From Pseudooceanicola nitratireducens (GTDB taxonomy: Bacteria; Pseudomonadota; Alphaproteobacteria; Rhodobacterales; Rhodobacteraceae), in NCBI RefSeq assembly GCF_900109195.1, contig NZ_FNZG01000005.1, positions 1 to 64,000 on the forward strand: a stretch of DNA of 64,000 bases. The letters are read 5' to 3'. Positions within the stretch are counted from its first letter, which is position 1. Each line of letters starts with the position of its first letter. The position numbers and the translations under genes were made by a program. The notes under the pieces were generated by a model. The model was not told where the DNA came from, searched no databases, and saw only the letters and a list, made by a program, of their open reading frames with translations. Positions 38,842 through 57,627 of the stretch are shown piece after piece.

Positions 38842-38852
38842 GGAGAGACAAC

Positions 38853-40056: not shown

Positions 40057-40416
40057 CTAGCCCAGGATGAAATAGACCTTACGCACATGGGTCAGGTTTT
40101 CCCAGGTGCCGCGAAACCCGCGCGTGATGGTGAAACTGTCGCCGGGGCCAAAGACCCGCGCGGTGCCGTCCTCGTCCGTCAGGCGCACCTGGCCTTCCAG
40201 GATATGGCACATCTCGTCATAGTCGGCGCTCTCGCGCTGACAATGCGGCCCGGCCTCCCAGATGCCGGCGGTGGCGGATTTCCCGGGGTTGGAGAAGTGC
40301 CTCCAGGCGTGGCTGGTATAGGGTTCCCTCACCAGGGCGGGATCGTCGATCACGCTGGTGGTGCAGGGCGTTTCGGGGTCGTCGAAGGCGATCACATGCG
40401 CCGGGGTCTGGGTCAT
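40057..40416 (-). CDS. Small cupin protein (DUF861-like)
   Basis: 119 aa single-domain cupin. The start is taken at the second of two ATGs (40416) because GGAAAG lies about 6 bases upstream; a TTG at 40431 is possible. YDEMCHILEGQV and FGPGDSFTITRGFRGTWE form the two cupin motifs; the HxH metal pair of classical cupins is not complete. C-terminal VRKVYFIL matches the ends of the two other small cupins of this operon (KKVYMIR, RNIYMLV). Role unknown; last gene of the amine operon. Confidence 0.85.
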   Translation of the reverse strand: MTQTPAHVIAFDDPETPCTTSVIDDPALVREPYTSHAWRHFSNPGKSATAGIWEAGPHCQRESADYDEMCHILEGQVRLTDEDGTARVFGPGDSFTITRGFRGTWENLTHVRKVYFILG

Positions 40417-40431
40417 CATCTTTCCAATCAA

Positions 40432-41838
40432 TCAGGAGCCGAAGCCGATGCCGAACCGGTCCATCAGCCGCAGCAGGGCCGACCGTCGACCGGTCCGGTC
40501 CTCGCGGGCGAGGTCGGATTGCGCCCAGTGGATCGCCAGGCTGCGCAAAGGTTCGGGCGGGAAGGGCACGGGCGTCTTGCTGGTCATGCGCAGGGCGGTG
40601 CGTTCGGTCTTCAGCCCGTCCAGGTGGTCCAGCAGGGTCAGCGCGGCAAAGCGCGTGGCGGACACGCCCTGCCCGGTGAAGCCAAGCGCATAGGCCAGCC
40701 GCCCGCCGCAGGCAGTGCCCGCAAAGAAGGTCAGCCGGGCCGAGGTGTCGATGATCCCGCCCCAGGCGTGGCTGAACCGCACATCCGCAAGCGCGGGGAA
40801 GGTGGCCAGGAAATTCGACTCAAGCCGGGCGTAGCTGTCGGCCCGGTTCAGCAGCCCCGCGTCACGTTTCGAGCCATAGTGATGCACCGCGTCATAGCCG
40901 CCCCAGAGGATCCGGTTGTCGGCGGTCTTGCGCGAGTAGTGGAACTGGTTGCCGCTGTCGGCCACGCCGTGGCGGCCGGTCCATCCGATCGAGGCCAGCT
41001 GCGCATCGCTTAGCGGTTCGGTCATGATCGTGTAGTCGTAGATCGGGATGATCGTCGGGCGCAGGCGCCGCAACAGGGGCACATCGGCATTGGTGGCCAG
41101 GATGACCTTCCTGGCGCTGACCTCTCCGTCCTTGGTGGTCAGGCGCAGGGCGTCGGGGGTTTCCGCCAGACCGGTGACCTGGGAGGTTTCAAATATCTCG
41201 ACCCCGGCATCCAGGCAGGCGCGGGCCAGCCCGTGCACCAGCCGGGCGGGGTTCACATAGGCATAGTTCTCTTCGAACAGGCCCTTGGGATAGGCGGGGC
41301 TGTCCAGCTTGGCGGCCAGGTCCGGCCCGTCGATCAGGCGGCTGTCCATGCCGAACCGCGCATGAGCGGCGCGCATGGAGGCCAGGCCCTTAGCCTGCCA
41401 GTCGGTGGCGGCCAGGTTGACCTTGCCGGTGCGTTCGAACTCGGCCTCGATGCCATAACGGGTCAGATCGGACTCGAGCGCGTCGAGGTTCGACAGACCC
41501 AGCCTGACCAGCGTTTCGGCCTCTTCCGGCCACCGTTCCAGCGCGTTGCCGACCCCGTGCGAGATGCTGGGCGCGCAGAAGCCGCCGTTTCGTCCGCTGG
41601 CCGCCTGGGCCAGGCGACGCCCCTCTAGCAGGATGATCCGCGCGTCGGGGTGACGTTCGCGGGCCTTCAGCGCCGACCACAGGCCGGTGAAGCCCGCGCC
41701 GACGATGGCCAGATCGCAGTTCTGCGTGCTGGAAAGCGCGGGCAGGGACAGGGGATCGCGGACCGTCTCGCTCCAATACGGTTCAAAGACGGTCTGGGCA
41801 AAGCGATGCGACAGGGAAGACAGATCAGCCATCCGCAT
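40432..41838 (-). CDS. FAD-dependent amine oxidoreductase (DAO family, PuuB-like)
   Basis: 468 aa. Rossmann motif AIVGAGFTGLWSA near 45-57, GRNGGFCAPS, a typical substrate-binding half and GFTGQGVSATRFAA close to the C-terminus. The family includes gamma-glutamylputrescine oxidase (PuuB) and related secondary-amine oxidases that yield an aldehyde and an amine. Together with the PotABCD-type importer and two aldehyde dehydrogenases it points to oxidation of an imported amine or amine conjugate. ATG at 41838 or 41832; overlaps the nucleotidyltransferase gene. Confidence 0.92.
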   Translation of the reverse strand: MRMADLSSLSHRFAQTVFEPYWSETVRDPLSLPALSSTQNCDLAIVGAGFTGLWSALKARERHPDARIILLEGRRLAQAASGRNGGFCAPSISHGVGNALERWPEEAETLVRLGLSNLDALESDLTRYGIEAEFERTGKVNLAATDWQAKGLASMRAAHARFGMDSRLIDGPDLAAKLDSPAYPKGLFEENYAYVNPARLVHGLARACLDAGVEIFETSQVTGLAETPDALRLTTKDGEVSARKVILATNADVPLLRRLRPTIIPIYDYTIMTEPLSDAQLASIGWTGRHGVADSGNQFHYSRKTADNRILWGGYDAVHHYGSKRDAGLLNRADSYARLESNFLATFPALADVRFSHAWGGIIDTSARLTFFAGTACGGRLAYALGFTGQGVSATRFAALTLLDHLDGLKTERTALRMTSKTPVPFPPEPLRSLAIHWAQSDLAREDRTGRRSALLRLMDRFGIGFGS

Positions 41839-42562
41839 GCTCTGTCAGCTGCTGTTCCAGCGCCGCCAGCTCCGCCTGGGAATTGACGCCGGTGACTTCC
41901 AGCGGTTCGGCCTGGGCGGTGGCGATCCGGTGCCCTTCGGCGCGGGCCAGGGCGACCACGTCGGTCAGGTAATATTCACCCTTGGCATTGTCGTTGCGGA
42001 TCTGCGGCAGCAGGCGGCGCAGGACATCCGCCCGACCCGCCAGGATGCCGGAGTTGCAGAAATCAATCGCCCGTTCCGCATCCGTCGCGTCCGAGAATTC
42101 GACGATCCGTTCCAGCGCGCCCTGGTCATCGGTGACCAGACGGCCATAGGCCCGCGGGTCCTGCGGCCGGAACCCCAGCACGGCCAGGGCCGTGTCGCCC
42201 TGCACCAGATCGGCCAGCGCTTGCAGCGTCCCGGCCCGGATCAGCGGCACGTCGCCATACAGCACCAGGATCGTGCCGTCGAAACCGCCGAGCCCGGGCA
42301 GGGCGCAGCGCACCGCATGGCCGGTGCCCAGCTGGCTGTCCTGCACCATCGTATCCAGCGCGGGATAGGCGGCATGGATCTGGTCGCGCCCGGCACCGAC
42401 CACCGTGATGCAGCGTGTGGCCTTCAGCTGATCCAGCGTCGACAGCACGCGGCCCAGCATCGTCTGGCCGCCCAGCACATGCAGCACCTTGTGCAGGTCC
42501 GATCCCATGCGGCTGCCTTTCCCGGCGGCCAGGATAATGGCGGCGATGTCGGGCCGGGTCAT
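41825..42562 (-). CDS. Free-standing GlmU-type uridylyltransferase domain
   Basis: 245 aa. Matches only the N-terminal half of GlmU (about 450 aa): LAAGKGSRM at 11-19, Lys25, QLGTGHAV at 77-84, metal-binding Asp104 in YGD, Glu155, Asn170, NDNAKGEYYLTD at 190-201 and Asn227 in GVN. All UDP-GlcNAc pyrophosphorylase residues are kept, while the left-handed-helix acetyltransferase half is absent. The usual LPK is LHK here. It should make a UDP-sugar from a sugar-1-phosphate, as MurU does after AmgK. The AmgK-like kinase and a GT1 glycosyltransferase in the same operon fit. Overlaps both neighbours. Confidence 0.93.
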   Translation of the reverse strand: MTRPDIAAIILAAGKGSRMGSDLHKVLHVLGGQTMLGRVLSTLDQLKATRCITVVGAGRDQIHAAYPALDTMVQDSQLGTGHAVRCALPGLGGFDGTILVLYGDVPLIRAGTLQALADLVQGDTALAVLGFRPQDPRAYGRLVTDDQGALERIVEFSDATDAERAIDFCNSGILAGRADVLRRLLPQIRNDNAKGEYYLTDVVALARAEGHRIATAQAEPLEVTGVNSQAELAALEQQLTEHADG

Positions 42563-44049
42563 TGCGCGTCCCCGCCGCCCAGATACCAGCCCCAGTCCGC
42601 GTCGCGGGCAAAACGGGTGACCTGCTTGGTCTCGAAATAGGCGTCGAAGCCTTCGCGCCCCAGTTCCCGCCCGATGCCGGAGGTCTTGTAGCCGCCCCAG
42701 GGGGCCTGGGTGAAGGTCGGCTGGGAACAGTTGATCCAGATGATCCCGGCGCGCAGCTTGGCCGCCACCCGGTCGCAGCGGTCCAGATCGTGGCTCATCA
42801 CCGCGGCGGCCAGGCCGAAGGGGCTGTCGTTGGCCAGGTGGATCGCCTCTTCCTCGGTCTCGAAGGGGGCCAGGCAGACGACGGGGCCAAAGATCTCCTC
42901 GCGCCAGATCTCGGCCTCGGGGGGGACGTCGGCATAGATCGTCGGGGCGATGAAATAGCCCGTGTCCATCCCATGCGGACGGCCACCGCCGGTGATCAGC
43001 CTTGCGCCATTGCCCTGCGCGCGAGCAAGGAAGCCCATGATCTTGTCGTATTGCGATTTCGACACGATCGGCCCCAGCTTGATGCCGTCCTGATCGCCGG
43101 GTCCGATGGTGATCGCCTCGGTCGCCTCTTTCAGCCGGGCCAGCAGCGGCTGGTACAGCGCCTTCTGCACCAGCACGCGGGATGTGGCCGAACAGACCTC
43201 GCCCTTGTTCCAGAAGATCCCGAACAGGATCCATTCCACGGCCCGGTCGATATCGGCGTCGTCGAAGATCACGAAGGGCGACTTGCCCCCCAGTTCCAGC
43301 GACACGGTGCGGATCCCGGCCGAGGCCGCCTGCATCACCCGCCGCCCCGTTGCGACCGACCCGGTAAAGGCGACCTTGTCGACCAGGGGGTGTTCCGACA
43401 ACGGTGCCCCGGCCGAGGGGCCGTCACCCGTCAGCAGGTTGAAGACCCCGGCAGGCACCCCGGCGGCGTCGATGATCCGGGCCAGTTCGTGACAGGACAG
43501 CGCGCAGAGTTCTGAAGGTTTGAGGACCACGGAACAGCCCGCCGCCAGCGCCGGCGCGACCTTCCAGACGGCCATCAGCATGGGGAAGTTCCAGGGCGTG
43601 ATCGCGGCGACGACCCCGACGGGTTCGCGCCAGACCCGCCCGTCAAAACGGTCGTCGCCCAGGTCGATGGTGCGCAGGGGGGCCTTGGCGTCGGCCTCGG
43701 CCAGGTCGGCGTAATAGTCGAAGACAAAAGCGGCGTCTTCGATGTCCCAGATTGCTTCGGGCAGGGGTTTGCCGTTGTCGCGCGTTTCGATCGCGGCCAG
43801 GGCGGGGGTCTCGGCCCGGATGCCTTCGGCGATGCGGCGCAGGGTGGCGGCGCGGTCGCTGGCGGGCAGATCGGCCCAGACCCCGGCGTCGAAGGACCGG
43901 CGTGCGGCGCGCACGGCCAGGTGCACGTCTTCGCCGGTCGCGGCGGCGACCTGGGCAAATTCCTGTTCGGTGGCGGGGTCGATGGCGGCAAAGCTGCCGC
44001 CCTTCACGGGGGCGCAGAAGGCGCCGTCGATAAAAAGCCGGGTGGTCAT
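42559..44049 (-). CDS. Aminoaldehyde/betaine aldehyde dehydrogenase (ALDH10-like)
   Basis: 496 aa. Catalytic Cys286 in NKGEVCSATSR and general base Glu252 in LELGGKSP. The runs ELGGKSPFVIFDDADID, WNKGEVCSATSR and WINCSQPTFTQAPWGG are characteristic of ALDH10 aminoaldehyde/betaine aldehyde dehydrogenases. Substrates of that group are 3-aminopropanal, 4-aminobutanal, 4-guanidinobutanal and betaine aldehyde, giving beta-alanine, GABA and so on. This is the best substrate clue in the operon and agrees with the polyamine-type importer. Confidence 0.93.
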   Translation of the reverse strand: MTTRLFIDGAFCAPVKGGSFAAIDPATEQEFAQVAAATGEDVHLAVRAARRSFDAGVWADLPASDRAATLRRIAEGIRAETPALAAIETRDNGKPLPEAIWDIEDAAFVFDYYADLAEADAKAPLRTIDLGDDRFDGRVWREPVGVVAAITPWNFPMLMAVWKVAPALAAGCSVVLKPSELCALSCHELARIIDAAGVPAGVFNLLTGDGPSAGAPLSEHPLVDKVAFTGSVATGRRVMQAASAGIRTVSLELGGKSPFVIFDDADIDRAVEWILFGIFWNKGEVCSATSRVLVQKALYQPLLARLKEATEAITIGPGDQDGIKLGPIVSKSQYDKIMGFLARAQGNGARLITGGGRPHGMDTGYFIAPTIYADVPPEAEIWREEIFGPVVCLAPFETEEEAIHLANDSPFGLAAAVMSHDLDRCDRVAAKLRAGIIWINCSQPTFTQAPWGGYKTSGIGRELGREGFDAYFETKQVTRFARDADWGWYLGGGDAQ

Positions 44050-44094
44050 GGTGCTGTCCTTTCCTGCCAGGGGTGTGGGTGTAACCCTATGGGG

Positions 44095-45600
44095 TCACAC
44101 GTGTTTCCGTCCGCCGGCATCCAGGAACCAATCGTCCGGATAGGGATACCACCAGTCCGCCATCTTCGCGACGGGATCCAGGATCACCATCTTGGGCTGG
44201 CGGAAGGCATCCAGCCCCGCCTTGCCAAGCGCCCGCCCCAGGCCCGAGCTTTTGATGCCGCCGAAGGGCAGGGCATCGTTGTCGACCAGCGGGTTGTTGA
44301 CCCAGACCATGCCGGCCTCGAAGGCCTCGATCGCGCGATGCGCTTCGGCCAGGTCCGAGGTGAAGACCGAGGCACCCAGCCCGAAGCGGCTGGCATTGGC
44401 CTGGGTCAGCGCATCCTCGAAAGACGCGGTGCGGATGATCGACACGACGGGGCCGAAGATCTCGGTCTCGTGCAGGTCCATCTCGGCGGTGACGCCGGTG
44501 ACGATCGTGGGCTCAACGTACCAGCCCTTGGGCTGATCGGCAGGCACACCGCCGCCGATGGCGATGGTTGCGCCCTTGTCGCGGGCCGTGTCGATCCAGG
44601 CCAGCACGCGGTCGCGCGCGGCCCTGGACACCAGTGGCCCGATCTCGGCCACGCCCAGCCCGTTGCCGACGCGCAGCTGGCGGGTCTTCTCGACCATGGC
44701 GGCGACGAATTCGTCATGTACCGCGTCCTCGACATAGATCCGTTCGGCCGAGGTGCAGACCTGCCCCGATTGCAGGTAGGCGGTGGTGACGGCCCCCGCC
44801 GCGGCCACCTGGATATCCGCGTGGCGCGAGATCACCATCGGATCGCTGCCGCCGCCTTCGATCACGCAGGGCTTCATCTGCGACGCGGCCTCGATCGCGA
44901 TCTGGCGGCCCACTTCGGCCGATCCGGTAAAGGCGATGGCATGGGTCTTGGGCGAGGAAATCAGCGCTTTGCCGACCTCGGCACCGCCCCCGACACAGGC
45001 GATCAGGTCACGCGGCAGGGCGTCGAAGAATTTCATGAACATCAGCGTGCAGATCGTCCCCGCGGGCGAGGCCTTCAGCACCACGCCGTTCCCCGCCGCA
45101 AGCGAGGCCGCCATGGTCCAGCAGCCCAGGATCAGCGGGAAGTTGTAGGGCACGATATGAACCGAGACACCGTAGGGCGCATAGGTCTGGAACTGGAAGG
45201 ACCCGGGCTGCATCGATCCGGCAATCCGCCCGGCGTCATCGCGGGCCATTTCCGCGAAATAACGGAAGACGGGGGGAATATTTGCGATCTCGCCAATGGC
45301 TTCGGGATAGGGCTTGCCGATTTCGCGGGTCATCATGACGGCGATTTCGGTCATGTCGGCCTGTTCCATCGCATCGGCCACGCGGTGCAGGATGCCCGCG
45401 CGGGTCTTGCAATCCATCGCCGCCCAAAGCTTTTGCGCCGCGTTCACACGGTCAAGGATCGTATCCAGCTGCGCGGACGAGGGTTCGCCGTATTGGCCGA
45501 CGTGCTCCAGCGTGGCGGGGTCCTCCACGTCGTGCAGGGGCCCTTGGGTCGCGACGTATTCGGGCGCGAGGTAATAGGACGGGGCAAGCAGGTCAGTCAT
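44095..45600 (-). CDS. NAD(P)-dependent aldehyde dehydrogenase
   Basis: 501 aa. Catalytic Cys282 in SGQVCTSAERIYV and Glu248 in VIEGGGSDP (the usual ELGG is EGGG). PYNFPLILGCW and ALPFGGIKSSGLGR are general family segments. It has an unusual C-terminal extension rich in Trp and Tyr (MADWWYPYPDDWF). A second aldehyde step next to the ALDH10-like enzyme suggests two different aldehydes, or one handled in glycosylated form. Overlaps the kinase gene upstream by 8 bases. Confidence 0.93.
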   Translation of the reverse strand: MTDLLAPSYYLAPEYVATQGPLHDVEDPATLEHVGQYGEPSSAQLDTILDRVNAAQKLWAAMDCKTRAGILHRVADAMEQADMTEIAVMMTREIGKPYPEAIGEIANIPPVFRYFAEMARDDAGRIAGSMQPGSFQFQTYAPYGVSVHIVPYNFPLILGCWTMAASLAAGNGVVLKASPAGTICTLMFMKFFDALPRDLIACVGGGAEVGKALISSPKTHAIAFTGSAEVGRQIAIEAASQMKPCVIEGGGSDPMVISRHADIQVAAAGAVTTAYLQSGQVCTSAERIYVEDAVHDEFVAAMVEKTRQLRVGNGLGVAEIGPLVSRAARDRVLAWIDTARDKGATIAIGGGVPADQPKGWYVEPTIVTGVTAEMDLHETEIFGPVVSIIRTASFEDALTQANASRFGLGASVFTSDLAEAHRAIEAFEAGMVWVNNPLVDNDALPFGGIKSSGLGRALGKAGLDAFRQPKMVILDPVAKMADWWYPYPDDWFLDAGGRKHV

Positions 45601-46672
45601 CGGAAGATCCGTTCATTTGGAGGGTCTTTTCTGTGGGGGCGGAGCAAGGGGCCAGCCGGGTGGCGGCCTCGGTCCAGCCCGGCAGGGCGGTGTTCAGGAA
45701 ATCGCGGATGTCGGTCAGCGCGGCATCGTCCAGCGCCTTTTGGAACTGTGCCAGGACGCGGGGCAGGAAGGTCATGTAGCGCGGCTTGCCGTCCCGCCGG
45801 TCGAGCCGCAGGAAGACGCCGAGGATCCGCGCGTGGCGCTGCGCGCCCAGAAGCGCATAGCGGTGGCGTATGGCGGCCTCTCCGCCCAGATGGGCGGGGG
45901 CCTGGGCGCAATAGCGGGCCAGCAGCTGTGTCTCGAGCCCCGGGGCCAGATCGCGCCGGGCGTCCTGCAACAGCGACACCAGGTCGTATTCGCAGGGGCC
46001 CAGGATCGCGTCCTGGAAATCCAGCAGCCCGCAGCGCGCAACGCCGTGGCGATCCGACAGCAGCATCAGGTTGTCGACGTGGAAGTCGCGCAGCACCAGC
46101 GTGTCGTGGCGGGTGTCGACCGGGGCCAGCGCCTCGCTCCAGAGGCGACGGAATTCGGTGTCGAAGAAGGCGACGTCGATCTCGGGGCGCAGGGCCGGGG
46201 CGAACCACTGGGAAAAGACCGACAGCTCGTCCAGGTGCACGGCGCGGTCATAGACCGGCCGGTCCAGCGCGGCCCCTTTGGGCGCGTGGTGCAGGTGAAG
46301 AAGCGCATCGACCGCCAGCTGGTACAGCCTGGCCTCGTCCTCGCCTTCCGCAAGGCATCGGGCATAGGTTGCGTCGCCGAAATCCTCGACCAGCGCCAGG
46401 CAGCTGTCGCGGTCCGCCGCCAGAACGCGCGGCGCCGAAAGCCCCAGCCCGTTCAGGTGGTCCGAAATCGCGAGATAGGCGGCAAAGCCCGCTGGATCGT
46501 GGCGATCGTCCATCAGCAGCGCGTCCTTGCCGACCAGCCGGGCGTAGGACCGGGTGGAGGCATCGGCGACAAACCCCTGAACGGGGACCCCGGCCATCCC
46601 CTGCCGCGCCAGAAAGGCGGGCGCGGGGGCGGGCAGGCTGTCGGACAGAAGGGGCGGCGACGCTAGGGTCAT
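45593..46672 (-). CDS. AmgK-like anomeric sugar kinase (APH fold)
   Basis: 359 aa. ADASTRSYARL at 36-46 corresponds to the ADASFRRYFR strand of AmgK; the catalytic loop LRDFHVDNLM (194-203, Asp196, Asn201) and LLDFQDAILGP with Asp218, then YDLVSLLQDARRD, are typical of AmgK and not of resistance kinases. AmgK phosphorylates C1 of MurNAc/GlcNAc to feed a nucleotidyltransferase (MurU). The partner here is the GlmU-type domain at 41825. It differs clearly from the ACAD11-type kinase at 33691. Overlaps both neighbouring genes. Confidence 0.9.
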   Translation of the reverse strand: MTLASPPLLSDSLPAPAPAFLARQGMAGVPVQGFVADASTRSYARLVGKDALLMDDRHDPAGFAAYLAISDHLNGLGLSAPRVLAADRDSCLALVEDFGDATYARCLAEGEDEARLYQLAVDALLHLHHAPKGAALDRPVYDRAVHLDELSVFSQWFAPALRPEIDVAFFDTEFRRLWSEALAPVDTRHDTLVLRDFHVDNLMLLSDRHGVARCGLLDFQDAILGPCEYDLVSLLQDARRDLAPGLETQLLARYCAQAPAHLGGEAAIRHRYALLGAQRHARILGVFLRLDRRDGKPRYMTFLPRVLAQFQKALDDAALTDIRDFLNTALPGWTEAATRLAPCSAPTEKTLQMNGSSDD

Positions 46673-47013
46673 CGGATCATGTAGACCTTCTTGACCGTCT
46701 CATGGACAGTGCAGGTGCCCTTCCAGTCCTGGGGAAAGAAGGCGGCGGTATCGGGGGTGATCTCGATCACCTCGCCGCTTTCATGCACGTAGGTGCAGCG
46801 GCCTTCGAGGAAGTGGCAGAATTCGTCCTTGGTGACGTGGCACTCCCATTTGCCGGGGGTGCAGATCCACAGCCCGCATTCGCTTTGGCCGTCGGGACCC
46901 TTGTGCAGGACCTTTCCCGAGGTGCGGCTTTCGCCCTCGATCATGGTCGGAATGACGCCCCAGTCGACCGTGTCGGTCACCGAAAGGGGTTTGTGCATCA
47001 CAGGTGCTTTCAT
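46669..47013 (-). CDS. Small cupin protein (DUF861-like)
   Basis: 114 aa cupin: WICTPGKWECHVTKDEFCHFLEG then AAFFPQDWKGTCTVHE and a KKVYMIR end. The D/E-F-C-H-F-x-x-G core is shared with the next gene upstream (47029), so the two are tandem paralogues. Related to the (S)-ureidoglycine aminohydrolase-type cupins; metal ligands are incomplete. May bind or isomerise a small amine or sugar product; function unknown. Confidence 0.88.
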   Translation of the reverse strand: MKAPVMHKPLSVTDTVDWGVIPTMIEGESRTSGKVLHKGPDGQSECGLWICTPGKWECHVTKDEFCHFLEGRCTYVHESGEVIEITPDTAAFFPQDWKGTCTVHETVKKVYMIR

Positions 47014-47028
47014 GTCTTTTTTCCTATG

Positions 47029-47391
47029 TCAGACAAGCATGTAGATATTGCGCAGGGTGTCCGTGATCTCGGCCGTGCCGGTCCAGCCGGCGGGAAACAG
47101 AACACAGGTGCCGGCGCTGGCTTCGATGACCTCGTCGCTGTCGTCGCGGCGATAGATCACGTGGCCCGCAACGAAATGGCAGAATTCGTCCCGGGGCACG
47201 GAAATCCGCCAGGTGCCGGGGGTGCAGACCCAGACACCGGTTTCCGGCGAATTGCCCGGCCCCTTGTGCAGAAGCCGGCCGGTGGAATGGGACTGACCTT
47301 CGATCATGTCGGGTTGCGGACCCCAGTCGACCAGGTCGTCATAGGTGGTGGCCCCGTGGATATGCGGGGCCGAAGAGGTGAGATCGGTCAT
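47029..47391 (-). CDS. Small cupin protein (DUF861-like), tandem paralogue
   Basis: 120 aa from ATG at 47391, overlapping the glycosyltransferase stop by 4 bases; upstream extension in the same frame is not coding. Shares TTYDDLVDWGPQPDMIEGQS/SHSTGRLLHKGP with the MIEGES/SGKVLHKGP run of the cupin at 46669, plus DEFCHFVAG and a RNIYMLV end. The duplication suggests a hetero-oligomer or two related ligands. Confidence 0.88.
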   Translation of the reverse strand: MTDLTSSAPHIHGATTYDDLVDWGPQPDMIEGQSHSTGRLLHKGPGNSPETGVWVCTPGTWRISVPRDEFCHFVAGHVIYRRDDSDEVIEASAGTCVLFPAGWTGTAEITDTLRNIYMLV

Positions 47392-48671: not shown

Positions 48672-48691
48672 TGATCTCTCTCCTGTTGGTC

Positions 48692-48719
48692 GCCGCCCTC
48701 GGGCGGGCGGCTGTTTTTT
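48692..48719 (+). terminator. Intrinsic-terminator-like hairpin on the antisense strand
   Basis: GCCGCCC (48692-48698) pairs with GGGCGGC (48705-48711), then TGTTTTTT. It reads as a terminator on the plus strand, yet all genes here run leftwards. In the leftward message the same stem lies between the potA-like and glycosyltransferase genes. Confidence 0.6.
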
Positions 48720-48735
48720 GGCGGTTGATGCGGGG

Positions 48736-49800: not shown

Positions 49801-50588
49801 TGGCCGGGCAGACCTCCGCGGTTCAGGCGTTGCGACAGGGCAAGGGCGATGACCGAGACGGCCATGACGATGGTTGCCAGCGCATTGATTTCAGGGGTGA
49901 CGCCGAAACGGATCATGGCGAAGATCTGCATCGGCAGGGTGATCGAGGCGCGACCGGCACCTGCGGTGAAGAAGGCGATGATGAATTCATCGACCGACAG
50001 GGTGAAGGCCAGCAGCGCCCCGGCGATGATCGCCGGCATCATCACCGGGATGACGATGCGGATCATCGTGATCGGGGTCGAGGCCCCGAGGTCGGCCGAG
50101 GCCTCGACGATGGACCAGTCGAAAGTCTTGAGCCGGGCACGCACCACCGAACAGACGAAGGCCAGGTTGAAGACCACGTGGCTGAGGATCACGGTGTGCA
50201 GCCCCATGGTCACGTTCAGCATCGAGAAGAACGACAGCAGGGCGATGGCCAGCACGATGTCGGGGATGATCATCGGGGCAAAGATGATGGTTTCCAGGAA
50301 CCGGCCCTTGCGGCGGCGGATTTCGACCCCGATGGCCAGCAGCGTGCCGAACAGCGTGGCGAAGATCGTCGAGACGACGGCGACCACCAGCGTGTTGAAG
50401 GCGGCTGACATGACGTCGGCATTGCGGAACAGCTCTCCGTACCATTTGACGGAAAATCCGGTCCAGGCGGTCGGTAGCCCGCCGTCATTGAACGACAGCG
50501 CCACAAGGACCGAGATCGGCACGTAAAGAAAGGCGAAGACCGCGGCGAGGATCACAAGCATCAGGCGGGAATTGGCGGTGCGGGCCAT
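49797..50588 (-). CDS. ABC transporter permease, PotC-like
   Basis: 263 aa from ATG at 50588. Six predicted membrane helices. The EAA loop (VEASADLGASTPITMIRIVIPVMMP) contacts the ATPase; FTLSVDEFIIAFF after it is characteristic of polyamine-type permeases (PotC/PotI). One base separates its start from the stop of the other permease gene. Confidence 0.94.
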   Translation of the reverse strand: MARTANSRLMLVILAAVFAFLYVPISVLVALSFNDGGLPTAWTGFSVKWYGELFRNADVMSAAFNTLVVAVVSTIFATLFGTLLAIGVEIRRRKGRFLETIIFAPMIIPDIVLAIALLSFFSMLNVTMGLHTVILSHVVFNLAFVCSVVRARLKTFDWSIVEASADLGASTPITMIRIVIPVMMPAIIAGALLAFTLSVDEFIIAFFTAGAGRASITLPMQIFAMIRFGVTPEINALATIVMAVSVIALALSQRLNRGGLPGQ

Positions 50589-50589
50589 C

Positions 50590-51444
50590 TCAGCTGTCCT
50601 CTCTTTTCGCGCCCGAGGCGCGTTCGCTGGCAAAGGTCTGCAGGGTCAGAAGCCCCATCATGATGGCGATCAGGATCATCGACAGCGCGGCACCGAAGGG
50701 CCAGTCGTTGGCGGTCAGGAACTGCGCGTAGACAAGGTTGCCGATCATCTGGAACTGGCCGCCGCCCAGAAGCGCGGGGGTCACGAAGTTGCCGATGGAC
50801 AGCACGAAGACAAAGACGAAACCGGTGGCGATGCCGGGGAAGGTCAGCGGCACGGTCACCCGCCGGAAGGTCGTCCAGGCCGAGGCCCCCAGGTCCTGAG
50901 ACGCCTCGGCGATCTCGGGGTTCAGCCGCGACAGGGGGGCGTAGCAGGCCAGGATGACGAAGGGCAGGTAGTTGTAGACCAGGCCCACGACCACGGCGCT
51001 TTCGGTATAAAGCAACTTCGGCAATTCGCCGTCGAACCCCAGCCACTGGGCTAGGCCCGTGATCAGCCCTTCGCGGTTCAGCAACACGATCCAGGCATAG
51101 GTCCGCACCAGGTAGTTCGACCAGAAGGGCAGGACGGCGAAGAACAGCAGGATCGGCTGGCGGCGCGCCGGGGCGGCCGCGATGGCAAAGGCCGCGGCAT
51201 AGCCGACGATCACGGCGATCAGCGCCGACAGCCCCGCGATGGCGGCGGATTTCAGGAAGATCCCGGCGTAAAGCGGGTCGAAGACCAGCGCCAGGTTTTC
51301 CAGCGTGAAGGTATATTCGATGCCGCCGTACAGCCCGCGCCGGAAGAAGGCGAGCGCAAGGATCAGCAGGCAGGGGATGACCATGAAGGCGGTCAGCCAT
51401 GCCAGGGCCGGGGCCATCAGGTAAAGCGGTCTGCGGTCTTTCAT
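50590..51444 (-). CDS. ABC transporter permease, PotB-like
   Basis: 284 aa with six membrane helices. EAA loop EIAEASQDLGASAWTTFRRV followed by VPLTFPGIATGFVFVFV and IGNFVTPALLGGG, the PotB/PotH pattern. Forms the channel with the PotC-like protein. Separated from the binding-protein gene by 190 bases holding a long stem-loop. Confidence 0.94.
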   Translation of the reverse strand: MKDRRPLYLMAPALAWLTAFMVIPCLLILALAFFRRGLYGGIEYTFTLENLALVFDPLYAGIFLKSAAIAGLSALIAVIVGYAAAFAIAAAPARRQPILLFFAVLPFWSNYLVRTYAWIVLLNREGLITGLAQWLGFDGELPKLLYTESAVVVGLVYNYLPFVILACYAPLSRLNPEIAEASQDLGASAWTTFRRVTVPLTFPGIATGFVFVFVLSIGNFVTPALLGGGQFQMIGNLVYAQFLTANDWPFGAALSMILIAIMMGLLTLQTFASERASGAKREDS

Positions 51445-51560
51445 GGGTATAGCGTTCCATGCACAGGCCAGGCGCGACCTGCGGTGCGGTGGTGGGGTCC
51501 GGCGGCGGGCGTCGCCCTGGCCGGATCCCCGGTTCTCTGCTCGATTGTCCGTCCGGGTCC

Positions 51561-51620
51561 GGGGTCACGATCCACGCCGAGGCGACAGCGCCCGTGCAGG
51601 GAGGAGGCGATCGTGACCCC
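51561..51620 (-). other. Long stem-loop between binding-protein and permease genes
   Basis: Perfect 12-bp arms GGGGTCACGATC (51561-51572) and GATCGTGACCCC (51609-51620), loop 36 bases, extended by CCGGG/CCCGG pairing outside. It lies 14 bases after the binding-protein stop codon on the leftward transcript. Probably an mRNA-stabilising or partially terminating element that raises binding-protein output. Confidence 0.75.
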
Positions 51621-51634
51621 GCCCGGGCCGGCCC

Positions 51635-52687
51635 TTACTGGGCCGCCTTGATTTCGGACACGGTGCGGGCGTAAAGGCGCTGGCCCTCGCCCACGTCGCG
51701 CAGCTGCTCATAGCTCAGCAGTTGCTCGGCCCCGATGGCCATGTTGGGGAAGCTTTCCAGGAATTCGGCCGAAAGGCTTTCCATCGCGGGCTTGTTCGGC
51801 ACCTTGTAAAGGATGTTCTCGGCCGCCCAGCCGTGGTTCTTCGCATCAAGGATGAAGTCCACGAAGGCATAGGCCGCGTCTTTGTTTTCGGAATTCTTCA
51901 GGATCACCATCGTGTCCACCCAAAGGTCCGAGCCCTCTTCGGGGATGACATATTTGATGTCGGTGTTCTCGGCGATGCCGTAGTTGCACCAGCCGTCCCA
52001 GGCGTGCACCAGCTCGGCCTCGCCGGACACCAATTTGGCGTAGAAGGTGGTGTCGTCATAGGCCAGCAGGGTCTTCTTGGCGTCGATCAGCAGATCGCGC
52101 ACTTCGCCGACTTTCTCGGGGTCGGTTTCGTTGACCGAATAGCCCTTGGCCAGGAAGCCCGCGCCCAGAAGCCAGCGGTCGGTTGCCAGCATGGTGGTCT
52201 TGCCCGACACATCGGCGGCGGGCACCAGCAGGTCATTCCAGCTGTCCGGTGCTTCGGCCAGCAGGTCCGAGCGATAGCACAGGCCGGTCGTGCCCCAGGC
52301 ATAGGGGATCGAGAAGGTGTTGCCCGGATCATGCGCCAGTTCCATCGCCTCGGGGTAGAGGTTCGCGATGTTGGACAGCTTGGAATGATCCAGCGTCTCG
52401 GCCAGGCCCAGGTTGTGCAGCACCTCGGCGAAGGGCGAAGAGACGAAGACCACGTCATACCCCTTGCCCTTGGAGGCGATCAGCTTGCCCATGATTTCTT
52501 CGTTGGTGCCGTGCAGCACCAGTTCAGCCGCGTTGCCGGTGGCGGCGGTATAGCTGTCGATCGCATCTGCGGCCATGTAGCCGTCCCAGTTCGAAACGAC
52601 GAGGCCCTCGGCCTGAACAGCGCCGAGCGTGGCCATCAAGGCAAGCGCGGACAGGCCGGCGGTCGTGAAAGGTTTCGTACCCATCAA
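51635..52687 (-). CDS. ABC transporter substrate-binding protein, PotD-like
   Basis: 350 aa (or 349 from the second ATG). Signal peptide to about AVQA-EG (26), so periplasmic. VSNWDGYMAADAIDSY, GTNEEIMGKL, GYDVVFVSS, SKLSNIANLYPE and SIPYAWGTTG are the conserved stretches of PotD/PotF polyamine receptors. The ligand is therefore probably a di- or polyamine or similar cation; the exact binding residues cannot be assigned without a structure-based alignment. First gene of the leftward operon, with its own promoter at 52766-52795. Confidence 0.94.
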   Translation of the reverse strand: MMGTKPFTTAGLSALALMATLGAVQAEGLVVSNWDGYMAADAIDSYTAATGNAAELVLHGTNEEIMGKLIASKGKGYDVVFVSSPFAEVLHNLGLAETLDHSKLSNIANLYPEAMELAHDPGNTFSIPYAWGTTGLCYRSDLLAEAPDSWNDLLVPAADVSGKTTMLATDRWLLGAGFLAKGYSVNETDPEKVGEVRDLLIDAKKTLLAYDDTTFYAKLVSGEAELVHAWDGWCNYGIAENTDIKYVIPEEGSDLWVDTMVILKNSENKDAAYAFVDFILDAKNHGWAAENILYKVPNKPAMESLSAEFLESFPNMAIGAEQLLSYEQLRDVGEGQRLYARTVSEIKAAQ

Positions 52688-52765
52688 AGTACTCCCTGTT
52701 TGGTTGTCACCCCGGCTTCGTGGCCGAGAAATTGTCGTGGCGGCTATTGCTTGCCGCCTGCCTAA

Positions 52766-52795
52766 ACTGTATTTTTGTGATCAAAAGAACGTCAA
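52766..52795 (-). promoter_or_regulatory. Sigma70-type promoter for the amine operon
   Basis: On the leftward strand TTGACG (52795-52790) and TACAGT (52771-52766) are 18 bases apart, about 80 bases before the binding-protein ATG. The -35 box overlaps the inverted repeat 52783-52815, so a repressor bound there would block it. Confidence 0.65.
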
Positions 52796-52815
52796 TTTGT
52801 ATTTGCTGTTCTTTT
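52783..52815. promoter_or_regulatory. Inverted repeat between potD-like and GntR genes (operator candidate)
   Basis: AAAAGAAC (52783-52790) and GTTCTTTT (52808-52815) with a 17-base AT-rich spacer, in the 164-base divergent region. Arms, spacing and overlap with the promoter suit binding of the GntR regulator encoded next to it. Confidence 0.65.
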
Positions 52816-52851
52816 CAAATTGCCCGCGGCATCCGTGGGGAAATGCATTGA

Positions 52852-53787
52852 TTGGAGAAAAAATTGGCGGGAACCCGGCGCGCCTCTCATCAAAGCCACC
52901 TGGAGCTGGCCAAGCAGATCATCGGCGTCGCCTTTGAAAAGGGGCTGCGGGCGGGCGATCATTTGCCTGAACAGGTCTTTTCCGACGCCTGCGCCGTGTC
53001 GCGAACGCCCATTCGATCCGCTTTCAAGCTGCTGGAATCAAGTCAAATTCTGGAATGGAAGCAGGAGAGGGGGTATTTCCTGGCGCTGGACGCGCCCGAC
53101 GCCATCACCGCCGCCCTGTCCGACCTGGAAGGAGAGGAGGCATCGCTGGCAGACCGCATCCTGGCTGACCGCGCCAACCGCCGCCTGTCGGAAATCCAGT
53201 CGGTCAGCGCGCTTGCCCGCAGATACAGCGCTTCTCGAAGTGCTGTACTATTTGCGCTAAAAGTACTGGCTCGCGAGGGGATCGTCACCCAATTGCCGGG
53301 ACGCGCCTGGGCGTTTCAGCCCATGATCGACTCGCCCCGCGCCCTCAGCGAGAGCTTCGAGATGCGCCTTTCGATGGAGCCTCTGGCCCTTACATCGCCC
53401 GGTTTTGCCCTCGACGGGAAGAAAGCAGGCATCCTGCGCGCCCAGATGGAGGACTTTCTGCTGCTTGATGAGGCAGCGGCGACCTCGGCCCGGTTCCGGC
53501 GGGCGGACAACGACTTTCACATGTTGCTGGCCGAAAGCTCGGCCAACCGGTTCCTGCGCGCGACCCTGATGGCGCATCACCGGCTGCGCATGGCGTCGAA
53601 GACCGGCGGCTCCATCCCCGCCTTCCGCATGCGCAAGGCGATGGAAGAACACCTTGAGATCCTCGACAGCCTGGATCGAAAGCAGAATGACCTTGCCGCG
53701 GATCAGATGATTGTCCATCTGCGCAGGTCCAATATCCGCCGCCCGGAAGCGGCCAATCGCGGCATTTCCCCGCTTCTGAGAGGTTAG
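52852..53787 (+). CDS. GntR-family regulator with two winged-helix domains
   Basis: 311 aa from TTG at 52852; a TTG at 52864 has a better ribosome site (GGAG, 6 bases) and would give 307 aa. Residues 16-78 form a GntR winged helix (LPEQVFSDACAVSRTPIRSA, then a GYFLAL wing). Residues 97-155 form a second one (SEIQSVSALARRYSASRSAV, REGIVTQLPGRAWAF). The rest is an FCD-like helical ligand domain. Two DNA-binding domains in tandem are unusual. Divergent from the amine operon, it most likely regulates it and is co-transcribed with the second glycosyltransferase 5 bases downstream. Confidence 0.9.
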   Translation: MEKKLAGTRRASHQSHLELAKQIIGVAFEKGLRAGDHLPEQVFSDACAVSRTPIRSAFKLLESSQILEWKQERGYFLALDAPDAITAALSDLEGEEASLADRILADRANRRLSEIQSVSALARRYSASRSAVLFALKVLAREGIVTQLPGRAWAFQPMIDSPRALSESFEMRLSMEPLALTSPGFALDGKKAGILRAQMEDFLLLDEAAATSARFRRADNDFHMLLAESSANRFLRATLMAHHRLRMASKTGGSIPAFRMRKAMEEHLEILDSLDRKQNDLAADQMIVHLRRSNIRRPEAANRGISPLLRG

Positions 53788-53792
53788 CCCCC

Positions 53793-55115
53793 GTGAACGC
53801 AACACCGACCATCGCCCTGTTCCCCGAGGCCAGCTTTGGCGCGGCCCTGAACTGTGTGGGCATCGCGCAGGAATTGCGCAAGCGTGGCGCGCGGCCCGTG
53901 TTCATCTGTCACCCGGGCTTTGTCGGGGTCTTCGCGGAATACGGGTTCATGGAATACCATCTGACCCCGAAGCCCGTGCCCGGCGGCCAGACCAACGAAG
54001 CCCGCTGGACGGATTTCGTGAACACCCATCTGCCGCATTTCAACCTTTCCGCCGCTGACCAGCTGACCACCTACGTGGGGCCGACCTGGGATGCCATCGT
54101 CGACACCGCGATCGAGGTCGAGGACAGTCTGCGCGCGGTTCTGGCCCAGATTCGGCCCGATGCGATCCTGCTGGACAACGTCATCATGTTTCCCGCCGTG
54201 GCCGAAGCCGGCTGCCCCTGGGTGCGTGTCGTGTCCTGCGCCGAAACCGAGATCCCCGATCCCGCGGTGCCGCCCTATCTGTCCGGGTTAGATCCGCAGG
54301 ACGATGCGGCCTGCGATGCCTTCCGCGCAGGCTATGCCAGGGCGACGGCGGCGGCGCACAAACGCTATAACGACTTCCGCCGGAAATGCGGCCTGGGCCC
54401 CCTGCCCGAGGCGATCTTTCTTGAGAACTCGGAGGATCTGAACCTGCTGCTGGCCCCTTCGGTGGTGCGTTATGACCGGGAAACCCCCCTGTCCGAGGAT
54501 CGGTTCACCTATCTCGAGGGCTGTGTGCGCAGCGAAAGCCCCTATGAGCTGCCCTATTTCCCCGATGGTGCTGGGCCGCTGGTCTATACCAGTTTCGGAT
54601 CGCTTGGCGCGCTGGACACGGCCCTGATCCAGCGGCTGCTGGACGCCTTCGCCACCTATCCCGCCCGCTTCCTGGTCAACGTAGGCGGCTTCCTGGAAAC
54701 CTATGACCAGGTGCCGGACAATGTGCATCTGGGCGACTGGTTCCCGCAGCCCTCGGTCGTGGCGCAAAGCGATCTGTTTATCCATCACGGCGGCAACAAC
54801 AGTTTCTGCGAGGCGCTGTTTCATGGCGTGCCTTCGCTGGTGATGCCCTATTGCTGGGACGGCCACGACAACGCGCAGCGCACCGATCACGCGGGCCTTG
54901 GCCTTTGGATGGATCGCAGCGACTGGACACCCGAGGAACTGCACCGCGCGCTGGACCAACTGTTGGGGGATGCTGCGCTGAAGGACCGGCTTTCGGGTAT
55001 TTCCACCGAGATGAAGAAACACCCAGGCAACGAGGTCGCCGCTGACGCCGTCATGGCGATGCTGCACCGGTCCCGTGTCGCCCAACCGGCAGGAGCGCTG
55101 AATGACCCCCACTGA
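53793..55115 (+). CDS. GT1-family glycosyltransferase, second paralogue
   Basis: 440 aa with a GTG start. Same layout as the protein at 47388: FPEASFGAALNCVGIAQEL, DWFPQPSVVAQ (315-325), HHGGNNS (331-337) and WDGHDN (355-360). The nucleotide-sugar site is nearly identical, while the N-terminal acceptor half is more divergent, so the two probably use the same donor on different or successive acceptors. Co-transcribed with the GntR gene and overlapping the NTF2-like gene by 14 bases. Confidence 0.93.
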   Translation: MNATPTIALFPEASFGAALNCVGIAQELRKRGARPVFICHPGFVGVFAEYGFMEYHLTPKPVPGGQTNEARWTDFVNTHLPHFNLSAADQLTTYVGPTWDAIVDTAIEVEDSLRAVLAQIRPDAILLDNVIMFPAVAEAGCPWVRVVSCAETEIPDPAVPPYLSGLDPQDDAACDAFRAGYARATAAAHKRYNDFRRKCGLGPLPEAIFLENSEDLNLLLAPSVVRYDRETPLSEDRFTYLEGCVRSESPYELPYFPDGAGPLVYTSFGSLGALDTALIQRLLDAFATYPARFLVNVGGFLETYDQVPDNVHLGDWFPQPSVVAQSDLFIHHGGNNSFCEALFHGVPSLVMPYCWDGHDNAQRTDHAGLGLWMDRSDWTPEELHRALDQLLGDAALKDRLSGISTEMKKHPGNEVAADAVMAMLHRSRVAQPAGALNDPH

Positions 55116-55575
55116 GAACCCTTTCGATCCCGCCGATCCCCTGCGCCACCACCTGTGGGAGCGTCACATCCGCGCCGACATCGACGCCTTCATCGCGGGG
55201 GACTGGGATGAGGTCGCGGATGATTTCGACGAAGCGGCATTTCAGGCGATCGACGCGGCGTTTTCCCCGGATCCCGCCGATTGGACCATCGGTTTTCCGA
55301 CCCTTGCCGCCTATCGCGACCGCTGGCTGGAGATGTCGGCCCAAACCCGCGCCACCGCCGATCCCGACCGTCTGCGCGATGCGATGTTCGCCGGGGTGCG
55401 GCTTGCCCGGATCGACGTCTACGACGGCGACATGGCCATCCTGCACAAGGTCTTTGACGGGGTGACGCCCCTGAAGGACGGGCAGGAAGACCCCTATGCC
55501 TGGCAATCCGTCTTCACCCTGCGGCTGCGCGAGGGCGCGTGGAAGATCACGTCCTTCGTCGGCTACATGGCATAG
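55102..55575 (+). CDS. Small NTF2/SnoaL-like protein
   Basis: 157 aa, no signal peptide or membrane segment. Helical N-terminus (HHLWERHIRADIDAFIAGDWDEVADDF), then a strand-rich second half ending FTLRLREGAWKITSFVGYM, the usual close of NTF2-like domains. These act as small-molecule cyclases, isomerases or binding modules. Family placement is tentative; the coupling with the glycosyltransferase suggests a role in the same pathway. Confidence 0.8.
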   Translation: MTPTENPFDPADPLRHHLWERHIRADIDAFIAGDWDEVADDFDEAAFQAIDAAFSPDPADWTIGFPTLAAYRDRWLEMSAQTRATADPDRLRDAMFAGVRLARIDVYDGDMAILHKVFDGVTPLKDGQEDPYAWQSVFTLRLREGAWKITSFVGYMA

Positions 55576-55595
55576 GTTCGCGGCTAAGGGCAGGG

Positions 55596-56162
55596 TCAGA
55601 AGGTCGGCGGCGTACAGGCGCTGACGACCTCGCATATGGCGGGGCCGGGGTTGCGGAACCGGTGCGGCGTGGCGCTGCTGAAGTAATAGGCATCGCCCTT
55701 GGTCAGCACATGGGTTTCGTCGCCCACGGTCAGTTCCAGCACGCCCGCCACCACGATCCCGCATTCCTCGCCCTCATGGCTTAGGGCGCGGCGGCCGGAA
55801 TCCCGTCCGGGCTGGTAAAATTCGTGCAGCATCTGCAGCTTGCGATCGGGGCGCGCGGCGGCAACCAGCAGGTATTTCAGCCCCGGCGCGCCGATGTCCA
55901 CCAGGTCGCCGCTGCGGATCACCGGCGTGTCGACGGATGCCAGTTCAAAACTGAAGAAGGTCGCCAGGTCCATGGGGATGCCGTCCAGGATCTTCTTCAA
56001 CACCGAGACCGAGGGCTGGGTCGCCATGGATTCGATCTGGCTGATGGTGCCGCTGCCAACGCCGGTGCGACGGGCCAGTTCGCGCTGCGACAACCCCTTG
56101 GATTGGCGCACGACCCGCAGCCGCCGGGCCACCATCGCGTCATGTGGTTGGGTCTCTGCCAT
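55596..56162 (-). CDS. XRE-family regulator with cupin domain (PuuR-like)
   Basis: 188 aa from ATG at 56162. Helix-turn-helix at about 10-65 (LRVVRQSKGLSQRELARRTGVGSGTISQIE, read in parts) and a C-terminal cupin ending with HRFRNPGPAICEVVSA. This two-domain form includes PuuR, the repressor of putrescine catabolism. Divergent from the omega-amino acid aminotransferase and convergent with the glycosyltransferase operon. Likely sites: CCTGAAAATCAGG (56231-56243) and the TTTTCA repeats at 56200-56215. Confidence 0.92.
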   Translation of the reverse strand: MAETQPHDAMVARRLRVVRQSKGLSQRELARRTGVGSGTISQIESMATQPSVSVLKKILDGIPMDLATFFSFELASVDTPVIRSGDLVDIGAPGLKYLLVAAARPDRKLQMLHEFYQPGRDSGRRALSHEGEECGIVVAGVLELTVGDETHVLTKGDAYYFSSATPHRFRNPGPAICEVVSACTPPTF

Positions 56163-56304
56163 CTGCTTTCCCGCTTCCGATGCGAAGCACCTTATCCATT
56201 TTTCACCTGTTTTCAATGCAGTGGTGCGGGCCTGAAAATCAGGATTGATCGGAAGGGGAAGCAAGCGGCAGTGTCGTCCAAACCCTATCGGACAGGATCC
56301 CGCC
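56163..56304. promoter_or_regulatory. Divergent promoter region, XRE-cupin / aminotransferase
   Basis: 142 bases. A perfect 5-3-5 palindrome CCTGAAAATCAGG at 56231-56243 lies between the two starts, and TTTTCA is repeated with a 10-base period at 56200-56205 and 56210-56215. Either or both may be operator elements of the XRE-cupin regulator. Confidence 0.55.
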
Positions 56305-57627
56305 ATGACCCATTCGCCCAGCCCGAACGATTTCTCGCGTTTCTGGATGCCCTTTTCGGCCAACCGGGATTTCGCCCGCGACCCCCGCCTGATCACGGCG
56401 GCGGACGGCATGTATTACACCAGCAGCGACGGCCGGCAAATCCTGGATGCAACGGCGGGCCTGTGGTGCGTGAACGCAGGCCACGGCGATCCGATCATCA
56501 AAGAGGCGCTGAAACGGCAGATCGACACGCTCGACTATGCGCCGCATTTCAACTTTGGCACCCCCGCCGCGTTCGAGCTGGCCGGCCAGGTCGCCGCGCT
56601 TTTCCCCGCGGGGTTGGAGCATGTGTTCTTCACCGGCTCGGGGTCGGAATCCGTGGATACCGCGCTGAAGATCGCGCTGCACTACCACCGGGCGCGGGGC
56701 GATGGCGCGCGGACCCGGCTGATCGGGCGGGAGCGCGGCTATCATGGGGTCGGCTTCGGCGGCATTTCGGTCGGGGGGATCGTCAACAACCGCAAGCATT
56801 TTGGCACGCTGCTGACCGGCACCGACCACATGCGCCACACCCATGATCCTGCGCGCAACGCCTTTTCACGCGGCTGCCCCGACCATGGGGCCGAGCTGGC
56901 CGACGACCTGATCCGGATCGCGGAACTGCACGATCCCTCGACCATTGCCGCGGTTATCGTCGAGCCGATGGCGGGATCGACCGGCGTTCTTCTGCCCCCC
57001 AAGGGCTACCTGCAGCGCCTGCGCGAGATCTGCGACCGGAACGGCATCCTGCTGATCTTTGATGAGGTCATCACCGCCTATGGTCGTCTGGGCAAGGCCA
57101 GCGCCGCCGAGGTCTTTGGCGTGACGCCCGACATCATCACCACCGCAAAGGGGCTGACCAACGGCGTGATCCCCATGGGGGCGGTGATCGTGGACGAAAA
57201 GATCTATGCCTCGGCCATGGAGCACAGCGAAACCCCGATCGAGCTGTTCCACGGCTATACCTATTCGGCGCATCCCATGGCCGTTGCCGCCGCCAAGGCG
57301 ACGCTGGAAACCTACCGCCGGAACGACATGTTCGCCCGGGTCGAGGCGCTGGCCCCCCTGTGGGAGGACGCGGTGCACAACCTGCGCGACGTGCCGAACG
57401 TTGTGGACCTGCGCAACATGGGTCTGGTCGCGGGGATCGAGCTGTCGCCGCGTCCCGGCGCGCCCGGGGCCCGTGGGGCAGAGGTGATGAAGATGGCCTG
57501 GGCCGAAGGGCTGATGATCCGGGTGACCGGCGACATCATCGCCCTGTCCCCGCCTTTCATCATCACCGAGGACGAGATCCAGATGCTGTTCGAAAAGCTG
57601 GCCGGGATCCTGCGCCGGATCGACTGA
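56305..57627 (+). CDS. Omega-amino acid (beta-alanine):pyruvate aminotransferase
   Basis: 440 aa, class III PLP aminotransferase. The N-terminal FWMPFSANRDF, DGRQILDATAGLWCVNAGH and YHGVGFGGISVGG are those of the BauA/omega-amino acid:pyruvate transaminase group; Asp253 (FDEV) and PLP lysine Lys282 (TTAKGLTNG) are present. It would convert beta-alanine or another terminal amine to the semialdehyde. That is the logical step after an ALDH10-type enzyme producing beta-alanine from 3-aminopropanal. Controlled presumably by the divergent XRE-cupin protein. Confidence 0.94.
   Translation: MTHSPSPNDFSRFWMPFSANRDFARDPRLITAADGMYYTSSDGRQILDATAGLWCVNAGHGDPIIKEALKRQIDTLDYAPHFNFGTPAAFELAGQVAALFPAGLEHVFFTGSGSESVDTALKIALHYHRARGDGARTRLIGRERGYHGVGFGGISVGGIVNNRKHFGTLLTGTDHMRHTHDPARNAFSRGCPDHGAELADDLIRIAELHDPSTIAAVIVEPMAGSTGVLLPPKGYLQRLREICDRNGILLIFDEVITAYGRLGKASAAEVFGVTPDIITTAKGLTNGVIPMGAVIVDEKIYASAMEHSETPIELFHGYTYSAHPMAVAAAKATLETYRRNDMFARVEALAPLWEDAVHNLRDVPNVVDLRNMGLVAGIELSPRPGAPGARGAEVMKMAWAEGLMIRVTGDIIALSPPFIITEDEIQMLFEKLAGILRRID

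Follow-up and report, generated by a model that had tools for sequence, protein, structure and literature searches.

A conserved glycosyltransferase-cupin operon with a PotABCD-like importer in Pseudooceanicola nitratireducens hints at amine catabolism with sugar as a temporary handle

The window analyzed here, 64,000 nucleotides of Pseudooceanicola nitratireducens (assembly GCF_900109195.1, contig NZ_FNZG01000005.1, positions 1 to 64,000), contains thirteen closely packed genes on the minus strand (40057-52687) and a divergent plus-strand pair, which together encode a PotABCD-like importer, two proteins of the glycosyltransferase family GT1 (GT1a and GT1b), three cupins, two aldehyde dehydrogenases (ALDHs), a flavin oxidase, a sugar kinase, a uridylyltransferase and a regulator. 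Relatives of this cluster in bacteria and haloarchaea hint at an undescribed type of amine breakdown in which a sugar serves as a temporary handle. Our tentative reading, to which we assign a probability of about 0.4, is that an imported amine is catabolized via a transient sugar conjugate and that the sugar is re-activated. The gene order, conservation, residue patterns and predicted fold are demonstrated below, and from them we infer the substrate, acceptor atom, sugar identity, chemistry, order of steps and role of the cupins.

The order GT1b, GntR regulator, PotD-B-C-A, GT1a, cup3, cup2, kinase, ALDH_B is repeated in Rhodobacterales, Hyphomicrobiales, Halomonadaceae and Pseudomonas, as in an operon conserved across taxa, and relatives of the cluster also lie on two haloarchaeal plasmids. 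In an AmgK-anchored search covering the best 80 of 280 loci, in which AmgK is present by construction, GT1a was nearby in 54; all 54 also had cup2 and ALDH_B, followed by PotA (52), cup3 (51), GT1b (49), a PuuB-like oxidase (36), ALDH_A (32), the free GlmU N-terminal domain GlmU-N (27) and the aminotransferase AptA (0). GT1a-anchored searches matched 9 of 248 genomes in a family sample (E 1e-20), and 13 of 385 and 8 of 398 genomes in class and phylum samples (both E 1e-60); each sample includes the genome of the window and one other genome is shared, leaving 27 distinct genomes. Among these 27 loci, cup2 occurred in 25 and cup3 in 19 (either cupin in 26), ALDH_B and each Pot gene in 19, and GT1b and GntR in 13, with lower counts for the kinase (6), XRE-cupin-like proteins (5), the PuuB-like oxidase (3), ALDH_A (2), and GlmU-N, cup1 and AptA (1 each). 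Gene borders in the fetched loci were set from open reading frame (ORF) length and blast, with no gene finder. The association of these genes exceeds chance, as judged from the 54/80, 26/27 and 19/27 co-occurrence counts. Its constant core is GT1a with a cupin, commonly joined by the importer and ALDH_B; the kinase and GlmU-N are accessories, because so few of the GT1a-anchored loci carry them, and AmgK was therefore rejected as a fixed component. The co-occurrence of GT1, kinase, GlmU-N and PotABCD expected by the first-pass annotation, made by a model from the sequence alone, thus held in part. Distantly related taxa do combine the kinase, uridylyltransferase, GT1, importer, oxidase and ALDH, but loci found through GT1a mostly do without the kinase and GlmU-N.

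Family identities in the window were obtained from Pfam and NCBIfam scans of the 20 ORFs in 37645-57627, and gene starts were corrected relative to the program-made ORF list. With these corrections, all genes named in the first-pass annotation were present, PotB being in another frame. The PotA-like ATPase (48736-49800) reached 382 bits, above the NCBIfam potA subfamily cut-off, and the PotC-like permease (49797-50588) and PotD-like binding protein (51635-52687) matched their families with scores under the respective cut-offs. The PotB-like permease was identified outside the family scan by tblastn conservation of the frame 50590-51444, which differs from the longest ORF (50561-51568), a match to none of the families. 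GT1a (47388-48671) and GT1b (53793-55115, plus strand) were assigned by EryCIII-like_C/UDPGT matches. The AmgK-like kinase (45593-46672) scored 226.8 bits against NF045698 (cut-off 500), and GlmU-N (41825-42562; 245 residues with its corrected start) matched the N-terminal domain of GlmU only, with 266.9 bits against a cut-off of 505. The scans also identified ALDH_B (44095-45600), the accessory BADH/aminoaldehyde-type ALDH_A (42559-44049; closest to BADH, 518.7 bits, cut-off 668.6), an accessory DAO-family (PuuB/AmaA-like) FAD oxidase (40432-41838), three Cupin_3 proteins (cup3, 47029-47391; cup2, 46669-47013; and the accessory cup1, 40057-40431) and a GntR-FCD regulator (52852-53787, plus strand). 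Neither a glutamine synthetase (Gln-synt_C) nor a class I glutamine amidotransferase was found among the 20 ORFs, which bears out the earlier statement that PuuA and PuuD are absent from the locus.

Six junctions of the minus-strand genes overlap by 4-14 bases, the other gaps from PotB to cup1 measure 0-64 bases, the PotD-PotB spacing is 190 bases and the operon frames have no internal stops. Because the junctions from PotB to cup1 overlap or leave at most 64 bases, the tight spacing suggests a single transcript of all thirteen genes. The divergent GntR and GT1b genes are separated from PotD by an intergenic control region (52688-52851) with an 8-base inverted repeat, AAAAGAAC-N17-GTTCTTTT. 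It is perfect here, and most of 21 aligned loci (Pseudomonas left out) carry an imperfect form. A promoter-like TTGACGT box overlaps the repeat and is identical in 21 of the 21 loci; repeat and box are likely the GntR operator and promoter.

The two GT1 proteins share an unusual residue pattern. Residues were counted over rows with at least 40% identity and at least 70% coverage (82 for GT1a and 61 for GT1b, 143 in total), and the catalytic His position was set by alignment to a His-bearing relative, the mite UDP-glycosyltransferase (UGT) 203A2. At this position, which we take to be that of the catalytic base in the His-Asp dyad, GT1a has Pro in 81/82 rows and Met in 1/82, and GT1b has Ala in 59/61 and Ser in 2/61; the presumed donor-site Gln is Gly in 143/143. 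The dyad Asp, the second His of HHGG and the motif Glu are retained in all 143 rows, and the UDP-binding residues in both proteins. A model of GT1a built from 46 sequences showed a GT-B fold with a mean pLDDT of 91 and mite UGT203A2 as best match (TM score 0.90); thus, the fold and the UDP-binding motif of GT1 enzymes are found here with the catalytic His missing. A PALN signature is present in both haloarchaeal GT1 proteins too. These data indicate that GT1a and GT1b are a real subfamily, predicted to be suited to binding a UDP-sugar and not to the textbook-base mechanism. Amine acceptors can dispense with a catalytic base, and an amine as GT1 acceptor would fit because it may need none. The closest solved structures to GT1a are spider-mite UGTs 203A2 and 202A2, and the mite UGT genes may have come from a donor close to the bacterial and archaeal GT1a subfamily.

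The importer had been expected to take up a di- or polyamine, and its binding protein speaks against this. According to PMC11414716, PotD binds spermidine via the acids E36, D168, E171 and D257 together with aromatic residues. The cluster PotD has G36, T169, W172 and D258 at those sites in 68 of 68 rows, which were chosen at no less than 50% identity, a threshold that favors like pockets; three of the four amine-binding acids (E36, D168, E171) are thus replaced in every row. In addition, it retains W34, Y37, W230, W256 and Y294 and gains W233. The single acid that remains of the four, set among aromatic residues, suggests a monocation as ligand, and the pocket changes argue against a polyamine; polyamine import was consequently set aside. 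A choline-like or N-methylated substrate was considered because of the Trp-rich pocket, the BADH-like ALDH_A, and the presence of a DgcA-like protein with GcvT in one related locus (L157) and of a Rieske oxygenase in another (L028). The two haloarchaeal binding proteins differ in the pocket, that of Natronorubrum having acids at all four PotD places. A second Pot-type operon, whose binding protein carries Asp where the cluster protein has W233, adjoins the cluster in some Pseudomonas (L057, 13555-19094, where an ALDH_A-like gene accompanies it) and in Ruegeria conchae (L179, 1-3597).

The kinase and uridylyltransferase bear on the supply of sugar. In this 99% complete genome of 32 contigs, a second AmgK (43% identity) has a MurU-like neighbor (below cut-off), and there is a second GlmU match (47% identity, open frame of 485 residues); the cluster AmgK and GlmU-N are extra copies. 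The residues conserved within each of the two AmgK sets, the catalytic motifs of an AmgK-type kinase included, are the same in the 60 cluster copies and the 26 others. Its partner is of GlmU type, not MurU type, and GlmU-N retains the substrate-site residues in 20 copies, matched by residue numbers that we assume to be those of GlmU; one site is Gln in 17 and Arg in 3, and one has a gap. GlmU-N was present in 27 of 54 GT1a-bearing AmgK loci, and 19 of these 27 had called frames of 243-318 residues, as expected of a free domain. The 26 AmgK loci without GT1a gave one GlmU match (L098), a 452-residue frame that is probably an ordinary GlmU (27/54 versus 1/26, Fisher p 3e-5, ignoring relatedness). 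In a midpoint-rooted AmgK tree with long branches, 58 of the 70 members sampled from the cluster clade sit in GT1 clusters of Alpha- and Gammaproteobacteria. Natrialba magadii and Natronorubrum aibiense, the two haloarchaea, have GT1, one cupin and an ALDH, then an ROK kinase (opposite strand) and a phosphohexomutase. In both records, the kinase is nearest to glucokinase and the mutase to archaeal GlmM, each below its cut-off. ROK kinases are presumably unrelated to AmgK, and the pair would convert a free sugar to its sugar-1-phosphate. The sugar-recycling leg is supported because a different sugar-activating pair adjoins the same GT1-cupin-ALDH unit, which fits the sugar-supply role assigned to this part of the locus by the first-pass annotation.

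Further comparison of 86 fetched GT1a loci found a PuuB-like protein (at least 50% identity) in 38 and a saccharopine-dehydrogenase-like protein, whose remote solved kin include carboxyspermidine dehydrogenase, in 5; none had both. At other loci GT1a is accompanied by a DAO or Amino_oxidase protein, by DgcA-like and GcvT proteins together, or by a DAO protein and a glutamine-synthetase-like gene. The recurring oxidoreductases fit amine chemistry.

In the proposed pathway, the importer would take up one amine-like compound, probably with one cationic end held in the tryptophan-rich pocket. The GT1 pair, devoid of the usual base, would move a sugar from a UDP-sugar, most plausibly onto nitrogen. 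The flavin oxidase, replaced elsewhere by the saccharopine-dehydrogenase-like enzyme, would cleave a C-N bond of the conjugate, and the ALDHs would then oxidize the aldehyde. The sugar would be detached, perhaps aided by the cupins, and the AmgK-like kinase and GlmU-N would rebuild the UDP-sugar from it. A bolder reading, which we hold to be possible but doubtful, is a full sugar-carrier cycle: base-free GT1s would N-glycosylate the amine, interchangeable oxidoreductases would sever its carbon chain from the nitrogen that bears the sugar, and AmgK/GlmU-N (proteobacteria) or ROK kinase/phosphohexomutase (haloarchaea) would re-activate the sugar.

Several observations weigh against catabolism via a sugar conjugate. 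The catalytic His is present in 0 of the 143 GT1 rows, in GT1a and GT1b alike, and the scan of the 20 ORFs in 37645-57627 found no glycoside hydrolase. New acids flank the PotD pocket (D170 and D231 in 68/68 rows, D35 in 67/68) and could compensate for those lost. With AmgK in 6/27 and GlmU-N in 1/27 of the GT1a-anchored loci, and no match to either in six further plasmid loci (four from Rhizobiaceae/Ruegeria with most of the core, and the two haloarchaea), the sugar supply is dispensable or housekeeping. Genomes holding the remaining cluster-type AmgK members lacked GT1a in 11 of 12 cases. The two haloarchaea belong to one family and their GT1 proteins are 89% identical, so their linkage counts as one event, and the ROK gene there is on the opposite strand. 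Many GT1a loci have no amine-type oxidoreductase within reach; five (L150, L151, L154, L155 and L158, some on short contigs) have GT1a and a cupin with neither a Pot operon nor a known amine oxidase, and an alpha-amylase adjoins GT1a in L154. A glutamine-synthetase-like gene lies beside the cluster in L162 (whose sequence stops just past GT1a), L163 and Natrialba, so the amine may be glutamylated, and the earlier idea of glycosylation as a plain substitute for gamma-glutamylation was not upheld. Finally, the other genome of the same genus in the sample (G192) had no GT1a match; the module is patchily distributed.

Alternatively, the imported amine, or a toxic aldehyde intermediate, could be glycosylated by the GT1 pair for protection or storage, with the oxidase and ALDHs running a parallel catabolism and no sugar cycle. 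Spider-mite UGTs, the nearest solved relatives of GT1a, are detoxification enzymes, and GT1a loci often lack the kinase, uridylyltransferase and PuuB-like oxidase. However, overlapping genes join GT1a, cupins, kinase, ALDHs and GlmU-N as one unit, and two distinct sugar-activating gene sets adjoin the same GT1 type; on balance we consider this explanation unlikely. We also give little credence to the view that the GT1-like proteins are UDP-sugar sensors, or carry out another reaction with the cupins, and are not transferases, the amine being degraded by ordinary oxidation or gamma-glutamylation: the nearly invariant His to Pro/Ala and Gln to Gly changes and the glutamine-synthetase-like neighbors suit it, but the UDP-binding residues do not vary, nor do the dyad Asp and several acidic residues, and sugar-activating genes adjoin the GT1s. 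It is very unlikely that AmgK and GlmU-N hitch-hike in an amine operon as strays from peptidoglycan-sugar salvage, since 58 of the 70 sampled clade members lie within the cluster and GlmU-N is associated with GT1a-bearing loci, although a separate AmgK with a MurU-like neighbor and another GlmU are encoded in the genome, and cluster-type AmgK mostly lacked GT1a in the 12 genomes noted above.

The locus resembles four known systems and differs from each. With Puu/Pau gamma-glutamylation it shares an importer, a DAO-family oxidase, an ALDH, a nearby XRE-cupin and, if the sugar-conjugate reading holds, an amine handled as a conjugate; in contrast, no PuuA-like ligase or PuuD-like hydrolase gene was found among the scanned ORFs, sugar genes and a GT1 pair are present instead, and the importer pocket is unlike that of PotD/PotF. 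As in AmgK-MurU salvage, a kinase and a uridylyltransferase are predicted to be able to make a UDP-sugar from a free sugar, whereas the window kinase belongs to a separate AmgK clade, has a GlmU-type partner and sits with GT1 and amine genes. The GT1 pair has the GT-B fold and UDP-binding residues of mite UGT203A2/UGT202A2 and OleD, from which it is set apart by Pro (GT1a) or Ala (GT1b) for His, Gly for Gln, and its place in a catabolic operon with cupins. The importer shares gene set, sequence family, aromatic box and one Asp with PotABCD spermidine/putrescine importers but has three of four acids replaced, W172 and W233 near the site, and D35, D170 and D231 as near-invariant acids.

The first-pass annotation had proposed a final transamination. 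A class III aminotransferase near the locus passes AptA NF052567 (706, cut-off 500), as the BauA-type call implied, but AptA was found in 1/27 GT1a-anchored and 0/54 AmgK-anchored loci and was rejected as a member of the module. The XRE-cupin of the window, a PuuR match of 136.8 bits (cut-off 211), adjoins AptA outside the usual cluster; XRE-cupin-like regulators (30-33% identity) occupy the GntR place in four other GT1a loci. Remoter GT1 relatives (37-43% identity) on Streptomyces and Pseudomonas frederiksbergensis plasmids had no such neighbors in the annotation shown, and in two further actinobacterial records the region carries no annotated genes. In a Rhodobacteraceae metagenome-assembled genome (L097, 3109-12381), the cluster is rearranged, with GT1a beside an AmgK-like kinase and facing ALDH_B, cup2 and cup3; an Amino_oxidase protein and an MFS transporter lie further along, and no Pot importer was found in this locus. 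Sagittula marina (L020, 9271-11457) has cup3-like, cup2 and AmgK with no more than a fragment of ALDH_B, in a genome without a GT1a match, perhaps a decayed cluster.

Elsewhere in the window, plus-strand genes adjoining the operon (32504-39986) encode acyl-CoA dehydrogenases, an APH-type kinase, an enoyl-CoA hydratase, two thiolases and a nitronate-monooxygenase-like protein. Beyond AptA (57664-63895) lie a TetR regulator, a nitronate-monooxygenase-like protein, an AMP-binding enzyme and a TRAP transporter (DctQ/DctM). ARAGORN called a lone tRNA-Ala with anticodon AGC at 17794-17880; this anticodon is unusual in bacteria, and the call is possibly spurious.

Glutamate is a known carrier of amines during oxidation in the Puu and N-methylglutamate pathways. 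No pathway of amine catabolism via a sugar conjugate appeared among the matches listed by a full-text literature search, and a term search for 'glycosyl' returned nothing from a review of poly- and monoamines (PMC9397018), a study of XRE-cupin regulators (PMC7901475) or a study of SAR11 polyamine use (PMC8437039). If the sugar-conjugate reading is true, sugar would be added to the few carriers known to keep hold of an amine while it is oxidized, and a function would be assigned to a bacterial and archaeal GT1 subfamily that lacks the textbook catalytic His. The same reading would also account for genes that, in marine, rhizosphere and hypersaline microbes, now bear the annotations glycosyltransferase, cupin and spermidine/putrescine transporter.

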